From: Pseudonocardiales bacterium
GTDB taxonomy: Bacteria > Actinomycetota > Actinomycetes > Mycobacteriales > Pseudonocardiaceae
Direction of reading: 5' to 3'
DNA: 41,861 nt
Assembly: GCA_023252195.1 (NCBI GenBank)
Contig: JAHEXI010000007.1
Location: 1-41,861 of the forward strand
Position 1 is the stretch's first letter, and each line of letters begins with the position of its first letter. A program made the translations under genes and the position numbers. This document shows positions 11,245-20,578 of this stretch, piece by piece. Under the pieces are notes generated by a model. The model had not been told where the DNA came from. It did no database searches and worked only from the letters and a program-made list of their open reading frames with translations.

Positions 11245-11706
11245 TTAGGTGGACGCTTGCTCGCGGAACTCCCGGACCGCGTCGGCGATGTCATCCACCT
11301 CCAGCACGTCGAGCATCAAACCGACCTGCTCTTCCCACACCTCGGCGGGAACGGCAGCACGCAGCTCATCTTCGAGGACGTGGTACACGGGGAGGCCCAA
11401 CTGGACCCCGGCCAACGGTCCTGCCCAGCTCGGATCACCGAGCACCACCGTCTCGGCGGCGATCCCGGCGCTTTCCGCGTCCGGTGCGCCGAGCACAACC
11501 AGCAGCGACTCGGCGCCGTGCTGGTCGACCAGGCGCTTGATCGTCTCCTGGGTGGACAGGTCCATGGCTCCGGCAGCCGTTCAAACGAAGCATTCGGTGG
11601 CGACGAAGGCCACCGGGGCCCCGGCCGCCTGGACACAGGCCGCAATCGCCGGTCCCGCGATACCGTCGCGTTCACCGATCACGATGACCTGTTTACCGTC
11701 GAACAT
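11245..11706 (-). CDS. grdA: GrdA-like selenoprotein A, in-frame TGA as Sec42
   Basis: Selenoprotein A of glycine/sarcosine/betaine reductase, the small shared carrier that takes the carboxymethyl group from component B as a selenoether. Reading through one TGA (11581-11583) gives a continuous 153-residue protein. Before it lies [20 protein letters not shown] and TECFV. After it comes [12 protein letters not shown], then [20 protein letters not shown] and [19 protein letters not shown]. The clostridial protein has Cys-Phe-Val-Sec-Thr-Ala-Ala-Gly-Ala-Met-Asp-Leu at exactly this point (Sec44). The ATG abuts the thioredoxin stop (TGAATG). Without recoding only 41 residues would be made. A methionine downstream (11565) would give a 106-residue fragment lacking the active site, which pipelines will call as a truncated gene. 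Confidence 0.93.
11553..11580 (-). promoter_or_regulatory. Candidate SECIS region of grdA
   Basis: Immediately 3' of the grdA TGA on the minus strand is a 4-bp stem GGCT-GCCGG-AGCC (11578-11566). A second short stem follows, TGGA-CCTG-TCCA (11564-11553). Bacterial SECIS elements are hairpins directly after the UGA with a guanine in the apical loop. Both are short, so which one, if either, binds SelB is uncertain. Confidence 0.4.
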
Positions 11707-12045
11707 TCACGCCTCCTTCGTTGGTAATTCGGCTAACGCATTGGCGAGCCACGTATCGACCTGATCCGCTACCAGGTTGGGGTCGCAGATGCGGGCCATT
11801 TCCTGGCCGTCGCGGAGCAGCAGGATGGTGGGCAGCCCGCGGACCTGCAGTGACATGCACAGCCGTCGAGCCTTGCTCGCATCCAGCTTGACCACGGTCA
11901 GATCGGGGTGTGCATCGGCGATGCTCGCCATGTGCGGGCTCAGCGCCACGCACGGGTGGCAGCTTTGCGCCCACACATCAACGAGCACCAGACCCGATCC
12001 GATAAGATCATCGAAAGTTTCTTTGGTGGCATCCACCACAGTCAT
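11707..12045 (-). CDS. Thioredoxin with CHPC active site, grd operon
   Basis: A 112-residue thioredoxin. The fold is complete: LVLVDVWAQSCHPC (active site Cys29-His-Pro-Cys32), then DLTVVKLDASKARRLC and VRGLPTILLLRDGQ with the cis-Pro. The active site differs from the usual WCGPC: the Trp is Ser and the dipeptide is His-Pro. Clostridial glycine reductase operons also carry a dedicated thioredoxin with a divergent dipeptide that re-reduces selenoprotein A, so the same role is inferred. It starts 5 bases after grdC stops, and its stop abuts the grdA start. No thioredoxin reductase is in the window. Confidence 0.88.
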   Translation of the reverse strand: MTVVDATKETFDDLIGSGLVLVDVWAQSCHPCVALSPHMASIADAHPDLTVVKLDASKARRLCMSLQVRGLPTILLLRDGQEMARICDPNLVADQVDTWLANALAELPTKEA

Positions 12046-12049
12046 CAGC

Positions 12050-13477
12050 TCAGCCTCCGTTGCGTTGCAGCAAGATGCTCATGCCGTCGGACCGCTGACT
12101 CATCCGCCCGAGAAACAAACTCCCCTTAGCTAACAACAACACCCGGTCGGCCGGTCCGGTGGTCAGCCGGGTCAGGGCATGGGGTAGGTAACACACCGCT
12201 GACGCCAGGTGTCCCTGAGTGGGAGCGTAACCCGGCATGCCTCGCTGCGCGACGAAGGAGCCGATCTCATCGCGGGTGATCTCCTTGCGGCGGACGGCCA
12301 ACGCGGCGATCGTGCGGTAGTTGCGCGCCGCGACGTCTCCTGAGCCCTGCGGTTCGGTGATCTCGGGGTTGTGCAGCTCGGTGGCGTAGTCGTCGACGTC
12401 GCACATCCGGGCGCCGATCGCTTCCAATGGCTGCACCGTCAGGTCGTGCAGGATCTGCGCACCGGAGCCGCCCGAGGACACTCGGTGACGCCCGACGGCG
12501 TCGAGTCTGATCCGGGGTGAGATGCCGTCGTCGGCGGTCACCAGCACCGCGACGCCGCCGAGCACGTCTTCCAGCACGGGCAGGCCGTGGCGCAGGTGCC
12601 CCTCGAACTTCATCCCGAGCTTGGGCTGCGAGCCGCCGGCGAGAACGACGACCTGCTCGAACACTCCCGCCACCACGAGGCTGGCGGCGATCACCAGCGC
12701 GGGGATCGGCGCCGCACAGAAGTTCTTGACGTCCGCTCCGGAGGACTCGGTCAGCCCGGCGACCGCCGCGATCGTCTTGCCCATGTTGCCCCCGCCGCGC
12801 TGGTAGCGGTCCCCGACGGCTTCCTCAGAGCAGGAGATCGTGTAGCCGATCCCCGCTGGGTCGACGCCGTGGTCCTGCAGCAGGCGCAGCAGCGCCAGGG
12901 TTCCGGTGGCCTTGCACGCCAGGTTTTCCAGCAGTATGTGCGCGACCAGCGACTCGTCCTCTTCGTGCGCACCACGCAACGCGCCCGCGAGGCAGTCCGG
13001 CGCCAGGTGCACGGGCAGCGCGCCGCTGGCCAGCGCAGCGTCAACGTCGCCGGCTGCCGCGGAGACCCGGGCCAAGTCCAGGTGCGCCGCCAGCGGGTGC
13101 TCGGCCAGCTTCTTGGCGGCCCGCTCTGCGACCTCCGGGGTGAGTACCAGCAGGTCGAACTCATCCACCGCGGCCATCAAACCGAGGAACTCGTCCTCCG
13201 GCATCAGCTCGCCGAACGGCGCGAATCGTTGTGCGCCGGCCATGCTGGTCCCCACCCAGGGGCGCGGTGGCAGCTCGCGGGGGTGACATGAGCCCAGGAA
13301 GGCCTGGTGCGCCGGGTAACCGACGGCGTCATCGAAGCTGCGCAGATGGGCCAGGAAACTACGTGTCAGTTCGGCGTCGGCGGGCAGCGTGCGCGCCGGT
13401 TTGGAGCCGAGCCGGGCCAGGCCCGGGGTGTGCGCCAGCACGAGGCTGACTGCCCGGATCACCGCTGCTTCAGGCAT
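12050..13477 (-). CDS. grdC: Glycine/betaine reductase component C beta subunit (GrdC)
   Basis: A 475-residue FabH-like protein that accepts the carboxymethyl group from selenoprotein A and forms an acetyl thioester. Family blocks are plain: DRYQRGGGNMGKTIA, NFCAAPIPALVIAASLV (conserved Cys), VVVLAGGSQPKLGMKFEG, GLPVLEDVLGGVAVLV, NPEITEPQGSGDVAARNY and GYAPTQGHLAS. The ATG at 13477 overlaps the grdB stop by 8 bases, so translation is coupled. The frame further upstream to 13651 is a shadow of grdB. Clostridial component C also needs GrdD (PlsX-like) to release acetyl phosphate. No grdD is seen, so the fate of the acetyl group is open. Confidence 0.92.
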   Translation of the reverse strand: MPEAAVIRAVSLVLAHTPGLARLGSKPARTLPADAELTRSFLAHLRSFDDAVGYPAHQAFLGSCHPRELPPRPWVGTSMAGAQRFAPFGELMPEDEFLGLMAAVDEFDLLVLTPEVAERAAKKLAEHPLAAHLDLARVSAAAGDVDAALASGALPVHLAPDCLAGALRGAHEEDESLVAHILLENLACKATGTLALLRLLQDHGVDPAGIGYTISCSEEAVGDRYQRGGGNMGKTIAAVAGLTESSGADVKNFCAAPIPALVIAASLVVAGVFEQVVVLAGGSQPKLGMKFEGHLRHGLPVLEDVLGGVAVLVTADDGISPRIRLDAVGRHRVSSGGSGAQILHDLTVQPLEAIGARMCDVDDYATELHNPEITEPQGSGDVAARNYRTIAALAVRRKEITRDEIGSFVAQRGMPGYAPTQGHLASAVCYLPHALTRLTTGPADRVLLLAKGSLFLGRMSQRSDGMSILLQRNGG

Positions 13478-14780
13478 CGGCCCGCTCCACAACGTCGACT
13501 TCGAAGATTGTCGGGTGTTCGACGGAGGTGGCGACCGCGTCCAGTGCGCGCAGTACCAACCGCCGCCGCCACGCCTGCTCGGCGTGGGGGGACAGGCTCG
13601 GATCACCCGAGGGGTAGGGAATGCCCCGACCCGGCACGATGCGCGGCGCACCCACCTGTTCGGCGATGGTGACGAGGTTGGTGATCACGGCGGTGGGGAT
13701 ACCGGAGCGCTCCAACTCCTTGGCAAGCGTTGACCCGCAACGCGTTCCAGTTCCTCAAGTGGCGGTCAGGATCGCGGCCTGCACGCCTGCCTTACGCAGC
13801 TCCGCGGCCCACTCGACACCGAAGCGCCGCGCGGTGGCCACCGGCGTGCCGTTGCCTACCGTAACCATGAACTCGCCATGCAGCCGCCCGATCGCGCCCT
13901 CGCGTTCCAGCGTGCGGGCGGCGTCCAGCGGTAGCACCCGGTTCGGGTCGGCATTGGCGGCGGTGGTCGCGAAGCCACCGGCCACCGACTCCCACTCCCC
14001 GGAAGCGAGTGCGTCGATCCCCTCGATCGGGTAGCGCAGCCAGCGGGTGGCGCGAGCCGACTCGAGCCGGTCCGGGTTCCCGGCGGGCACCACGGCAGCC
14101 TCGGTGACCAGCGCGATGGTCGCGCTGGCCGGCTTGTCCACCGGTGCGGCCGGCTCCACCGCGTCGAAACCACCGACGGGGATCTCGGTGCTCTGCTGGT
14201 CACCGCCGAGCCGCCGCAAGACGAGCTCGACGGCCCGCGCTGCGGCGCGCTGCTCGACCAGCCGGCCGATCCGGGCCGCCTTGACGACCCGGCCGTCTTG
14301 CGCGGTCAGCGTTGCGCCGGTGGCCAGCTTTGCGATCGCGGCGGCGACCCGCTGCAACGTCGGGCGCATCTCCCGGGCGGTGGCGCCCGAGGCCACTACC
14401 GGGGCGGCGCCCGCGTCGGTGATGCCGGGGTTGTCCGGGTGCATCGTGGCCAGCGCCGGTAGCCCGGCGGCGTCGGCAGCGGCGACCAGCCGGGCGCACG
14501 CCAACCCGTAGCGGCCACTGCCGAAGGCGGGACCGGCGACCAGCAGCTCAGCGCCGGCGCCGCGGGCCAGGTCGAGCAGTTCCTGCGCGGCGGTGGCGTT
14601 GGAGGCGGCATGGTTGTCGCCGCACACGATGGTCGCGATGATCCGGTGCTGGTCCCCGAGCAGCTGAGCCAGTAGCCGTCCCGGACCGACCGTCCCGTCG
14701 AGCATCCGGGGGCCGATACCCGCGGTTTCCTCGCCGCCGAGACCGGCATAGAACTGGTTGAGGTAGTGCACGATGCGCAT
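13470..14780 (-). CDS. grdB: Component B selenoprotein (GrdB), in-frame TGA as Sec342
   Basis: The substrate-activating selenoprotein subunit of glycine/sarcosine/betaine reductase. Reading through TGA at 13755-13757 gives 436 residues, the normal family length. The first 341 residues start MRIVHYLNQFYAGLGGEE and contain DNHAASNATAAQELL and a GPAFGSGRYGLACA block. The region before the TGA reads ELRKAGVQAAILTAT. After it comes GTGTRCGSTLAKELERSGIP and NLVTIAEQVGAPRIVPG, then GIPYPSGDPSLSP. The clostridial motif is Sec-Gly-Thr-Cys-Thr-Arg-Cys-Gly, so Sec is at the catalytic place. The start overlaps the grdE stop (TGATG). Standard gene calling splits it at the TGA. Confidence 0.95.
13727..13743 (-). 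promoter_or_regulatory. Candidate SECIS hairpin of grdB
   Basis: On the minus strand a perfect 6-bp stem GCGTTG-CGGGT-CAACGC begins 12 bases after the TGA (13755-13757). Its loop contains GGGT, with the guanines 19-21 bases downstream of the TGA. That spacing and loop match bacterial SECIS elements. It lies within coding sequence, as these elements do. Confidence 0.7.
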
Positions 14781-16072
14781 CAGGCCGTGGCTCCCAACTT
14801 CAGACCGGCTAGCTGCTGCTCGTCCGGCCGGCAGGACAGCCGCCCGGCGCCCAGTGGGCTCAGGGCGGACAGGACCGCCGCGGTGGGCACCTCGACCGCG
14901 GCGGTCGCGTCCGCGTCGGCGATGCGCAGGCGGGTGCCGCCCAACGCCCGCTCGACTGCGGGCAGCGCCACCCGCTGATCGTAGTTACCGGTACTGACGA
15001 TTGCGCCTCGCCGCGGACCGGCGACCAGCGGTGGACCGGTGCCGTCGGCGCCGGACATCTCGGCGTACAGCGCCACCGCGGTCAGACCGTCGGCCTCGAG
15101 GGCGTCGACTTTCAACATCAGGTCGTTGTCGGCGTTGCCGGCGCCTTCCTTGGTGACGATGGCGGCATCGAAGCCGGCAGCCCGGCACAGCCAGGCGGCG
15201 TGCGTGGAGACCAGTTCCTTGTCACCTTGCTGCACTGGCTCCGGGCACAGCACTACTCCGGCGAAGTGCAGGTCCCGGCCGTCGCGGGCGCGGAGCTCGG
15301 CGATCACCGGGTGGTTTTGGTGCAGGTAAGTCGGGTTGCGCAGCGCCGGGTGCCCGTACTGGCCGCTGACCACGGCCCCATCCTCGATCTCGGCGGGGTC
15401 GAACAGGGTGGGCAGGCTGCCCGCCATGCTGCGCCCGTAGACGAAGACGTCCTTGAACGCGCCCTGAGTCTGCAGGTTCGTGATCACGCCGACCCGGGGG
15501 AGGCCGCCAGTAGGGGTGCCCGGGCGGTGCGGTGGCGCCAGCTCCTCGACCGCGTCGGGCGCGGCGTCGACGGCGGCGTCGGCGAGGTGCACCGCTACCC
15601 GCAGCAGCCCTCGGCGTAGCGCGATCTCAGCTTCCTGCCAGGAGGCGCCGTCAGCGCGGTCGAACTCGATCACGATGTTGTTCGTCCGACCGAACGGGGA
15701 CAGCTGCGCGGCCGGACCGGACATGTCGATCAGGCCCTCCTGATTGCGCGGCAGGAACCCGGCTGCCAGCACTGCGGCGCCGCGCAGCACGTGAATGTCG
15801 CCGCCGCGTTTGCGGTTGACCGGCGCCATCCAGCCGGGAAACGCTCCGCCGGCTGGTCCCTTGGATCGCGGCTCCACCACGTCGAGCGGCGCGATGATCC
15901 GGACCGGGTCTCCCGGCGCCGCGATGTGCACGCGCACCGATGCCAAGGCGGGATCTTCAAACAGCGCCTGGGCCCGGTCCCGGCCAACTACAAGATGATG
16001 TTGTTCATACCGGGTGGAGACGCCGATCTCAAGAGAGTGGACTTGGTGGACGATGCGCCTCGATGCCGGCAC
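14780..16072 (-). CDS. grdE: Component B proprotein-like subunit (GrdE family)
   Basis: A 430-residue protein of the GrdE/GrdG/GrdI family, partner of GrdB. The GTG start follows GAGGGGAGACC. Family blocks include GLIDMSGPAAQLSPF, GVITNLQTQGAFKDVFVYG, RNPTYLHQNHPVIAEL, FAGVVLCPEPV and ITKEGAGNADNDLML-like sequence. In glycine reductase this subunit is cut at an Asn-Cys pair (SGNC) whose Cys becomes a pyruvoyl group binding the substrate amine. Here that site reads SGQYG (residues 236-240), with Gln-Tyr in place of Asn-Cys. Cleavage and a pyruvoyl group are therefore not expected, so a substrate without a free amine, or different chemistry, is likely. First gene of the operon; 59 bases separate it from the CHAD gene. 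Confidence 0.9.
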   Translation of the reverse strand: MPASRRIVHQVHSLEIGVSTRYEQHHLVVGRDRAQALFEDPALASVRVHIAAPGDPVRIIAPLDVVEPRSKGPAGGAFPGWMAPVNRKRGGDIHVLRGAAVLAAGFLPRNQEGLIDMSGPAAQLSPFGRTNNIVIEFDRADGASWQEAEIALRRGLLRVAVHLADAAVDAAPDAVEELAPPHRPGTPTGGLPRVGVITNLQTQGAFKDVFVYGRSMAGSLPTLFDPAEIEDGAVVSGQYGHPALRNPTYLHQNHPVIAELRARDGRDLHFAGVVLCPEPVQQGDKELVSTHAAWLCRAAGFDAAIVTKEGAGNADNDLMLKVDALEADGLTAVALYAEMSGADGTGPPLVAGPRRGAIVSTGNYDQRVALPAVERALGGTRLRIADADATAAVEVPTAAVLSALSPLGAGRLSCRPDEQQLAGLKLGATA

Positions 16073-19134: not shown

Positions 19135-19209
19135 GGGGCGGTAGCTCAGCTGGTCAGAGCAGCGGACTCATAATCCGTCAGGTCGTGGGTTCGATCCCCA
19201 CCCGCCCCA
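19135..19209 (+). tRNA. tRNA with CAT anticodon (Met or Ile2)
   Basis: A complete 75-base cloverleaf. The acceptor stem GGGGCGG pairs with CCGCCCC, the D-arm is GCTC...GAGC, and the anticodon arm is GCGGA-CTCATAA-TCCGT (anticodon at 19169-19171). The T-arm is GTGGG-TTCGATC-CCCAC. Discriminator A; CCA not encoded. CAT can be elongator Met or lysidine-modified Ile2; sequence alone does not decide. The integrase begins 86 bases downstream on the same strand. Confidence 0.95.
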
Positions 19210-19294
19210 CCTGGTTCTAGCAGCTAGAATAGTCTTTCGAAGATCGATAAAGTGGATCTCTGGGTGCCGTTGCGGGTGCGAGTACTCTCAGTGC

Positions 19295-20578
19295 ATGGCT
19301 TCGAGAGATCGAGACGGTCGCCAGCGGGGCGAGATCGAGCGGCGGGGCACGTCACTGCGGGTGAAGGTCTACGCCGGAGTGGACCCGGTGACCGGCAAGC
19401 GCGTGTACCGCAGCGAGACGGTCAAGGGCACGGACGAGAAGGCCTACAAGCAGGCAGAGCGCAAGCTCACGGCGCTGATGGCCGAGATCGACCGGCAACG
19501 AGGCACCCCGAGCGTGACGACGCTCGGGCATGTCATCGACGAGTGGCTGCGCACCGTCGAGATCGAAGACAGCACCCGCGAGGGCTACGAGGGCTACATC
19601 CGCCGCACCATTCGCCCCGTGTTGGGGTCGGTGCCGATTAGCAAGATCACGCCGCGAGCTCTGGAGAACCTGTATGCAGACCTGCGGCGCTGCCGAGTTC
19701 GCTGCGACCGGATGCCCCATATCGAGCACAAGGCAGTCGGTGACCATGATTGCGTCAAGGTCAAGTGCCGCCCTCACGAGTGCAGGCCCATGTCGGCTTC
19801 AGCGGTCCGGCAGGTGCACGCCGTGATCAGCGGGGCGCTGAACCTCGCCGTGCGCTGGGAGTGGCTGGACTCCAACCCCGCCCGGTTCGCGGTACGTCCC
19901 AAGCAGAAGCCACCTCAACCGGATCCGCCGTCCGCGGCCGATGCCGCTCGACTGCTGGATGCGGCGTTCGAACTGGACGACGACTGGGGCACGCTGGTGT
20001 GGCTGGTAATGACCACCGGTGTGCGGCGAGGCGAGATCTGCGCGTTGCGTTGGTCCCGTGTCGATCTGGACGCCGCCGTGATTGATTTCCGACGCAGCTA
20101 CCGGCTCCGGCGCGGCACTGGGACCGAGAAGGACACCAAGACCCACCAGATGCGCCGCATCGCCTTGGACGCCGAGACCGTGGTGTTGTTGCGTGAGCAC
20201 AAGGACCGGTGCCGAGAGCGCCTGAAATCGATCGGCATCGAGCTGACTGACGACATGTACGTGTTCCACGGCGTGCGCAACATCGACCCGACTACGCCGT
20301 ACTCACCGCACGCCGTATCGAGCCGCTACAAGGACATGGCCGAACGGCTTGGCATCGTCACCCACCTCCATGCATTGCGGCACTACTCGGCCACCGAGCT
20401 GCTGACCGCAGGCGTGGACCTCCGCACGGTCGCCGGCCGACTCGGCCACGGTGGGGGAGGGGCGACCACGCTGCGGGTATACGCCGCATGGGTCGCCTCC
20501 TCCGACCGCAAAGCAGCGGAGATCCTCGGCTCCCGCATGCCCAAACGTACAACCGCAGCCCAAGGATCCGACTGTTAA
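19295..20578 (+). CDS. int: Tyrosine-recombinase integrase of an integrative element
   Basis: A 427-residue phage/AICE-type site-specific integrase. The N-terminal arm-binding domain (to about residue 75) is followed by a core-binding SAM-like domain with a Cys-rich insert typical of actinobacterial integrases (CRVRCDRM, then HDCVKVKCRPHEC). The catalytic domain has Arg in TTGVRRGEICALRW, His-x-x-Arg in HLHALRHYSATELL, His in GRLGHGG and the nucleophile Tyr in TLRVYAAW. All five residues are present, so it may be active. Its stop codon lies inside a tRNA-Asn-like 3' fragment, as expected when attP overlaps the end of int. Confidence 0.93.
   Translation: MASRDRDGRQRGEIERRGTSLRVKVYAGVDPVTGKRVYRSETVKGTDEKAYKQAERKLTALMAEIDRQRGTPSVTTLGHVIDEWLRTVEIEDSTREGYEGYIRRTIRPVLGSVPISKITPRALENLYADLRRCRVRCDRMPHIEHKAVGDHDCVKVKCRPHECRPMSASAVRQVHAVISGALNLAVRWEWLDSNPARFAVRPKQKPPQPDPPSAADAARLLDAAFELDDDWGTLVWLVMTTGVRRGEICALRWSRVDLDAAVIDFRRSYRLRRGTGTEKDTKTHQMRRIALDAETVVLLREHKDRCRERLKSIGIELTDDMYVFHGVRNIDPTTPYSPHAVSSRYKDMAERLGIVTHLHALRHYSATELLTAGVDLRTVAGRLGHGGGGATTLRVYAAWVASSDRKAAEILGSRMPKRTTAAQGSDC

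Follow-up and report, generated by a model that had tools for sequence, protein, structure and literature searches.

The window analysed here, a stretch of 41,861 nucleotides (contig JAHEXI010000007.1, GC content 65%) from the genome of a Pseudonocardiales bacterium (GCA_023252195.1), carries on its minus strand an operon of glycine reductase-like genes in the order grdE-grdB-grdC-thioredoxin-grdA. By sequence, the operon has two selenocysteine codons, a host genome with the machinery to read them, no recognisable GrdD, no pyruvoyl-forming cysteine in its GrdE-like subunit, and altered active-site motifs in GrdB. We think it probable that the operon encodes a selenium reductase built on the glycine/betaine reductase plan that works without GrdD and without a pyruvoyl group, acts on an acetate derivative, and passes the acetyl group to coenzyme A (CoA) or hydrolyzes it, rather than transferring it to phosphate. 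More specifically, and only tentatively, we suggest that respiring actinobacteria have here a selenium-dependent reductase, driven by thioredoxin, which cleaves a C-X bond in some acetate derivative (not glycine) and feeds acetyl directly to CoA through a GrdD-free GrdC, without acetyl phosphate and within aerobic metabolism. The selenocysteine codon by itself is expected and ordinary for GrdB; the GrdD-less, pyruvoyl-less branch in respiring actinobacteria is the wider new finding. The features of the operon are as follows.

14780..16072, minus strand: grdE-like gene (second subunit of component B), GTG start; PF09338, 322.1 bits; its stop TGA (14782-14780) overlaps the grdB ATG.
13470..14780, minus strand: grdB-like selenoprotein gene, 436 residues, selenocysteine 342; TIGR01918, 413 bits; PF07355, 357.6 bits.
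13727..13743, minus strand: hairpin of grdB resembling a selenocysteine insertion sequence (SECIS), GCGTTG CGGGT CAACGC, 12th to 28th base past the TGA.
12050..13477, minus strand: grdC (beta subunit of component C), start inferred; NF040746, 553.4 bits (cut-off 450); FCAAP cysteine present.
11707..12045, minus strand: thioredoxin-like gene (CHPC); PF00085, 63.9 bits.
11245..11706, minus strand: grdA selenoprotein gene, selenocysteine 42 in CFVU; NF040748, 215.2 bits (cut-off 130).

The grdB frame opens with the ATG at 14780-14778, meets an in-frame TGA at 13757-13755 (codon 342) and ends with a TGA at 13472-13470. Under the standard code it would close at codon 342 and leave 341 residues; with the TGA read as selenocysteine (U), translation gives ILTAT-U-GTGTRCGS and 94 more residues before a stop that overlaps the beginning of grdC, whose likely start codon is the ATG at 13477-13475. 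The earlier note on this DNA had proposed this read-through to a full-length selenoprotein, the motif around the TGA, the 94 downstream residues, the overlap with grdC and a second selenocysteine codon in the same operon. All of these are borne out by translation, the grdC start being likely rather than proven, and grdA does have its own in-frame TGA, at 11583-11581 (codon 42), within CFVU.

Conservation decides how the grdB TGA is read. Exactly one in-frame TGA lies past codon 250 of the match in 111/111 GrdB loci (106 distinct), and in the 96 loci whose contexts were printed it falls in the same motif. A wider sample of 396 actinobacterial genomes gave the same picture. Sixty-seven of them had a match, of which 16 were full-length GrdB, each with one C-terminal TGA (16/16; the gene in genome G245 also carries a TAG). 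The other 51 were partial matches only, with roughly 24-35% identity and mostly in the C-terminal half, and we took them to be other, shorter proteins and did not count them; some of these are without a TGA, as are the matches L013-L016 and L019 among those from the genus and nearest genomes. The alternative that decay or an assembly error has left a TGA that ends a 341-residue protein agrees with the standard code, but the single TGA in every GrdB locus, the conserved codons that follow it, the single TGA in each GrdA copy, and the selenocysteine machinery of the genome make it extremely improbable, as the earlier note had also judged. A genomic error or pseudogene was rejected on the conservation of codons and the universality of the TGA. 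The grdB TGA, as well supported as sequence allows, almost certainly encodes selenocysteine in a full-length selenoprotein.

Bacterial SECIS elements are hairpins shortly past the TGA with a guanine in the loop, and grdB has such a hairpin, GCGTTG-CGGGT-CAACGC, at 13743-13727. Its perfect 6-base-pair stem, CGGGT loop, first base at the 12th position after the TGA and loop guanines at +19 to +21 are all as the earlier note had described them. On its own the hairpin says little and does not decide the reading, since 20 of the 1,059 TGA triplets in the window (both strands) are followed by a comparable one, defined as a perfect stem of 6 base pairs with a loop of 3-8 bases, G in the first two loop bases, and a start 8-20 bases past the TGA. 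It gains weight because its codons, some of them rare, are nearly invariant while their neighbours vary. In the 34 loci covered by the codon comparison, out of 43 in the clade defined below, ACG CGT TGC occupies codons +4 to +6 in 34/34, codon +7 is GGG in 33/34, and codon +8 is TCA in all 24 rows with serine and GCA in nine of the ten with alanine. In these genes CGT, TCA and GCA are seldom used, accounting for 8.6%, 7.0% and 4.9% of their respective codon families, and codons +1 to +3 and +10 show synonymous variation in the same loci. Common descent inflates these counts, but clade GrdB proteins go down to about 60% identity with that of the window, and codons adjacent to the hairpin do change. 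Substitutions in the stem among relatives are few, chiefly A to G changes that turn U-A into U-G pairs, so covariation is not shown, and in folds of 45 nucleotides the hairpin is not the top structure in every relative. No clear SECIS emerged for grdA, for which folds differ among relatives and no single hairpin stands out.

The genome to which the window belongs encodes tRNA-Sec (77 bits), SelA, SelB and SelD, all above cut-off, with the genes for SelB and SelA side by side in a single locus of contig C31 and that for SelD on contig C46. Among the 24 grd-bearing genomes searched, GrdA (PF04723) was found in 23, each copy with one TGA, and was not found in G395, which is 81% complete. GrdB is present in 8 of the 11 genomes of the genus, one of which (G010) has only a fragment at a contig end; SelD falls under the cut-off in G001 and G006, both without GrdB, and in G010, and G008 has SelD without GrdB. 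One or more of selA, selB and selD lie within the stretch fetched around the grd operon in 5 of 43 clade loci (L038, L047, L055, L060 and L172). Other candidate selenoprotein genes were seen in passing. The window's genome has a gene like the alpha subunit of formate dehydrogenase without a TGA and, elsewhere, fragmentary formate dehydrogenase-like matches with TGA and TAG (G000:C5:27678-29501 and G000:C41:156257-157207), and several genus mates have such matches with one TGA. Shorter proteins resembling PrdB or the C-terminal part of GrdB, often with one in-frame TGA, occur in many of the sampled actinobacterial genomes (for example L156 and L165); the one at L165:1468-2610, a stretch of 381 codons with a UPLCTR motif, scores 115.8 bits with the PrdB model, below its cut-off of 300. 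These are possibly a second selenoprotein family.

From 560 confirmed loci the top 80 were retained as relatives, and 106 rows were compared, 43 from one clade and 63 others; repeated contigs (L037, L041, L043, L045 and L175) were dropped from these rows and kept in the 111 loci above and in the GrdC-tail counts below. A maximum-likelihood tree of 81 of the 106 rows, from which the even-numbered loci L082-L130 were omitted, separates the 43 rows including the window from the rest by a branch of length 0.65 (support 100/100); the tree is midpoint-rooted, so that 'clade' here means one side of a branch. The clade comprises 42 actinobacterial rows and one from Dormiibacterota. Its relatives include metagenome-assembled genomes with titles such as Pseudonocardiales, Mycobacteriales, Solirubrobacterales/Solirubrobacteraceae, Thermoleophilaceae and Acidimicrobiia, among others. 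Enorma, which as a coriobacterium is likewise actinobacterial, carries the canonical type (L117). Full-length GrdB is found in 11 of the 150 nearest genomes. The genus mate G009 (about 4% contamination) has two grd loci, G009:C26:29368-30675 and G009:C148:3925-5232, whose GrdB sequences share 81% and 79% identity with that of the window.

The clade differs from canonical glycine reductase first at the end of the enzyme that binds substrate. Where canonical GrdE and GrdG have SGNCVSACDKN, the window's GrdE has SGQYGHPALRN, and the alignment shows no pyruvoyl-forming cysteine at that site; the clade mostly reads SGQ(Y/F)GHP(A/G/S)L(K/R)N. The position of that cysteine holds tyrosine in 28, phenylalanine in 14 and a gap in one of the 43 clade rows, against cysteine in 51 of the 59 readable rows outside. 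GrdEB-like pairs on long branches in L097 (Binatia), L131 (Myxococcota) and L089 (Formimonas) are also without the GrdE cysteine, and L097 and L131 show no GrdA, GrdC or GrdD within the fetched stretch. Motifs given for glycine reductase in PMC6778437 are UxxCxxC in GrdB and CxxU in GrdA. The window's GrdA has its CxxU, whereas GrdB is UxxGxxC in 43/43 clade rows, with glycine at the third position past selenocysteine where 56 of the 63 others have cysteine. Elsewhere in clade GrdB, GPAFNAG has become GPAF(T/G)SG and HGGYDP has become (H/A)GGF(S/A)T. The GrdB residue motif as given in PMC9751293 is found in 0/43 clade rows (L077 is cut at its N terminus) and in 47 of the 63 others, and the GrdF motif in 0/43 clade rows.

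The window's GrdB passes TIGR01918 (cut-off 65.45) and PF07355 (cut-off 22), and falls below the models for glycine reductase (TIGR01917, 379.5 versus 602.2 bits), sarcosine reductase (GrdF, 399.7 versus 800) and betaine reductase (GrdH, 365.9 versus 775). A sequence search returned no solved structure for GrdB, GrdE or GrdC at E values up to 0.1. An ordinary reductase of glycine (or sarcosine) yielding acetyl phosphate, with an unrelated enzyme in place of GrdD and another carbonyl in GrdE, would accord with the clear family membership, with GrdA and GrdC passing their models, and with TVGNGT, which is closer to the GrdB than to the GrdF form. We nevertheless regard it as improbable, given the failed motif, the missing cysteine, the broken UxxCxxC, the lack of an acetate kinase in the window's genome, and the losses of GrdD and the GrdC tail set out next. 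The earlier note's implied identification of the gene as GrdB of glycine reductase is therefore not supported.

In the canonical system, acetyl phosphate is formed by a thiol of GrdD. A tblastn search with one GrdD query from Enterococcus gilvus found GrdD at 0/43 clade loci, 41 of which had at least 1.5 kb beyond grdC, and at 43 of the 48 loci outside the clade with equal room. Two profile models found no copy elsewhere in the genome: PF02504, which scores a known GrdD at 147.1 bits, had no match in the window's genome, and NF040747, which scores the same GrdD at 552.3 bits, exceeded its cut-off in 0/11 genomes, with a lone match of 19.4 bits in G122 against a cut-off of 350. The loss is mirrored in GrdC, whose C-terminal tail of about 30 residues accompanies GrdD and is absent from the window's GrdC. 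In 45/45 loci with GrdD, GrdC ends in 56-61 residues or is fused to GrdD (L078 and L100), and in 52 of the 53 loci without GrdD it ends in 23-36 residues, the exception being L084, where the contig ends 332 bases past the grdC match; these counts include repeated contigs and omit rows whose tail could not be read, among them L082, L091 and L181. The fusions L078 and L100, which encode GrdC and GrdD in one frame of 852 and 865 residues from the start of the match, fit the idea that the tail is the contact with GrdD. Five actinobacterial loci outside the clade, L180-L184, are also without GrdD despite room for it, and the GrdE cysteine is missing in all four that are readable.

The established scheme, as given in PMC13188914 and PMC10838667, has the GrdB selenolate attack the activated substrate, GrdA carry the intermediate, and component C release acetyl phosphate. 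For the operon in the window we propose that SelB and tRNA-Sec would read the TGA as selenocysteine, aided by the hairpin whose first base is the 12th after it, and that GrdEB would bind X-CH2-COO-, a derivative of acetate, with no Schiff base to a pyruvoyl group. X would then be displaced by the selenolate of GrdB, and the carboxymethyl group would move to the selenocysteine of GrdA (CxxU), the operon's thioredoxin supplying the reducing power. GrdC would take the acetyl thioester on its FCAAP cysteine and, without GrdD, the acetyl group would go to CoA (or be hydrolyzed) rather than to phosphate, so that the enzyme may feed acetyl units or detoxify in a respiring cell rather than yield ATP from acetyl phosphate. 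As GrdA and GrdC both exceed their model cut-offs, the middle of the cycle should stand. The chemistry and its direction, the leaving group, the acyl acceptor, the substrate, the product and the aerobic use are what we infer. CoA transfer is our preferred exit, with hydrolysis as the alternative, because KAS III and thiolase are acyl-thioester enzymes and the E. gilvus homologue of GrdC matches the KAS III family at 25.2 bits (cut-off 24) and thiolase at 21.3 (below its cut-off of 26.4).

The missing pyruvoyl group makes glycine and sarcosine unlikely substrates. Betaine-type and fluoroacetate-type reductases are the two known cases in the family that work without such a group, and we make no choice between these and another substrate. 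A reductase of glycine betaine or a similar quaternary amine, yielding trimethylamine and, like GrdHI, needing no Schiff base, would suit a second component B subunit without the pyruvoyl cysteine: GrdI of E. gilvus (L050) is also without cysteine at the aligned site (SGSFMPC), and PMC10838667 describes GrdI as not a pro-protein. We consider this unlikely, as the GrdH score is less than half of its cut-off, no conserved transporter was recognised beside the operon, and the single GrdHI locus examined, L050, keeps GrdD, the GrdC tail and UxxCxxC, and adjoins a BCCT transporter. By analogy with FarEB of Cloacibacillus, a detoxifying reductase of haloacetate or another small substituted acetate might be imagined, a slightly less likely option still. 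By the description in PMC10838667, FarE is without pyruvoyl cysteines and FarB without CxxC, comparable to the window, and FarE is the second NCBIfam match of the window's GrdE. Its score of 122.9 bits, however, is far under the cut-off of 675 and also under the GrdG score (227.1), and no conserved flanking gene was recognised other than sel genes. FarEB, as described there, belongs to an anaerobe, feeds the A and C proteins of glycine reductase, and has antiporter and radical SAM genes in its operon, unlike the window.

Sarcosine reductase GrdFG (Peptoclostridium, L048) gives the best scores after TIGR01918, namely GrdF for the window's GrdB and GrdG for its GrdE, with the latter also below its cut-off (780) and GrdG having SGNC. 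Clostridial GrdABCDE (Acetoanaerobium, L049; Tissierella, L087) shares with the clade the CxxU of GrdA, a GrdB-type selenoprotein, the FCA(A/G)P of GrdC and a thioredoxin in the cluster; it differs in having GrdD, the GrdC tail, the GrdE pyruvoyl cysteine and UxxC rather than UxxG, and the window's host has the oxidase gene COX1.

COX1, encoding a heme-copper oxidase, was found in all 24 of the grd genomes searched (19 of the clade and 5 not; in G280 as a fragment), and acetate kinase in 6 of the 24, the window's genome not among them. ATP from acetyl phosphate in the classical manner of a fermenting anaerobe therefore does not fit the window's genome, and we infer an aerobic life of these cells from the oxidase gene. 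PMC1794560 lists GrdA and GrdB in Symbiobacterium, a microaerophile that was placed among the actinobacteria at the time, and the occurrence of Grd beyond strict anaerobes is accordingly no novelty. Among the open-licence papers that our searches listed, we recognised no account of a GrdD-less or pyruvoyl-less actinobacterial form.

Several observations weigh against our interpretation. All six genomes with acetate kinase belong to the 19 clade genomes searched. The GrdI locus L050 and the Formimonas locus L089 are without the GrdE cysteine and yet have GrdD, so one loss does not always come with the other. Clade relatives include metagenome-assembled genomes, and some of the clade's genomes are incomplete, so an unrecognised substitute for GrdD may exist. 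DUF5940 is the only Pfam match of the window's GrdC, and its use of CoA is proposed through the acyl-thioester relatives of a homologue. The genus mate G010 (87% complete) has a GrdB fragment and no SelD above cut-off. Finally, no flanking gene that names the substrate was recognised among the open reading frames within 9 kb of grdB, where the contig allows, clustered across 34 loci. Eight of the clusters spanned at least three loci: one of these is recognisable as SelD, others coincide with selA or selB, and the remainder look like antisense or spurious frames.

The layout of the operon is largely kept in the clade. By our count, 30 of the 43 loci have all five genes, with grdA preceding the thioredoxin gene in L067. 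Of the remaining loci, L077 is cut by the end of its contig, and in the others the fetched stretch shows no thioredoxin gene, or neither that gene nor grdA. Three genomes of family f59 have their grdA at another site. The top NCBIfam match of the window's thioredoxin-like protein is ThioredTrxAClost (70.8 bits, under the cut-off of 140). Near the operon lie a tRNA-Met (19135-19211) and then a tyrosine-recombinase gene (19295-20578), which give the region 19135-20578 the look of an integrated element.

Gene callers that use the standard code would end these grd genes prematurely, at the TGA, and none of the 43 clade members is caught by the published GrdB motif that we tested. The setting is unexpected, a system known mainly from fermenting anaerobes in an actinobacterial genome with a heme-copper oxidase, and the ends of the enzyme that bind substrate and release product are altered alike across several actinobacterial lineages. 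Two questions become testable: the fate of the acetyl group on a GrdD-less GrdC, and the identity of a substrate that requires a selenolate yet can do without a pyruvoyl group. If our interpretation is right, the operon would add another substrate branch to the family, operating in aerobic metabolism and without acetyl phosphate.

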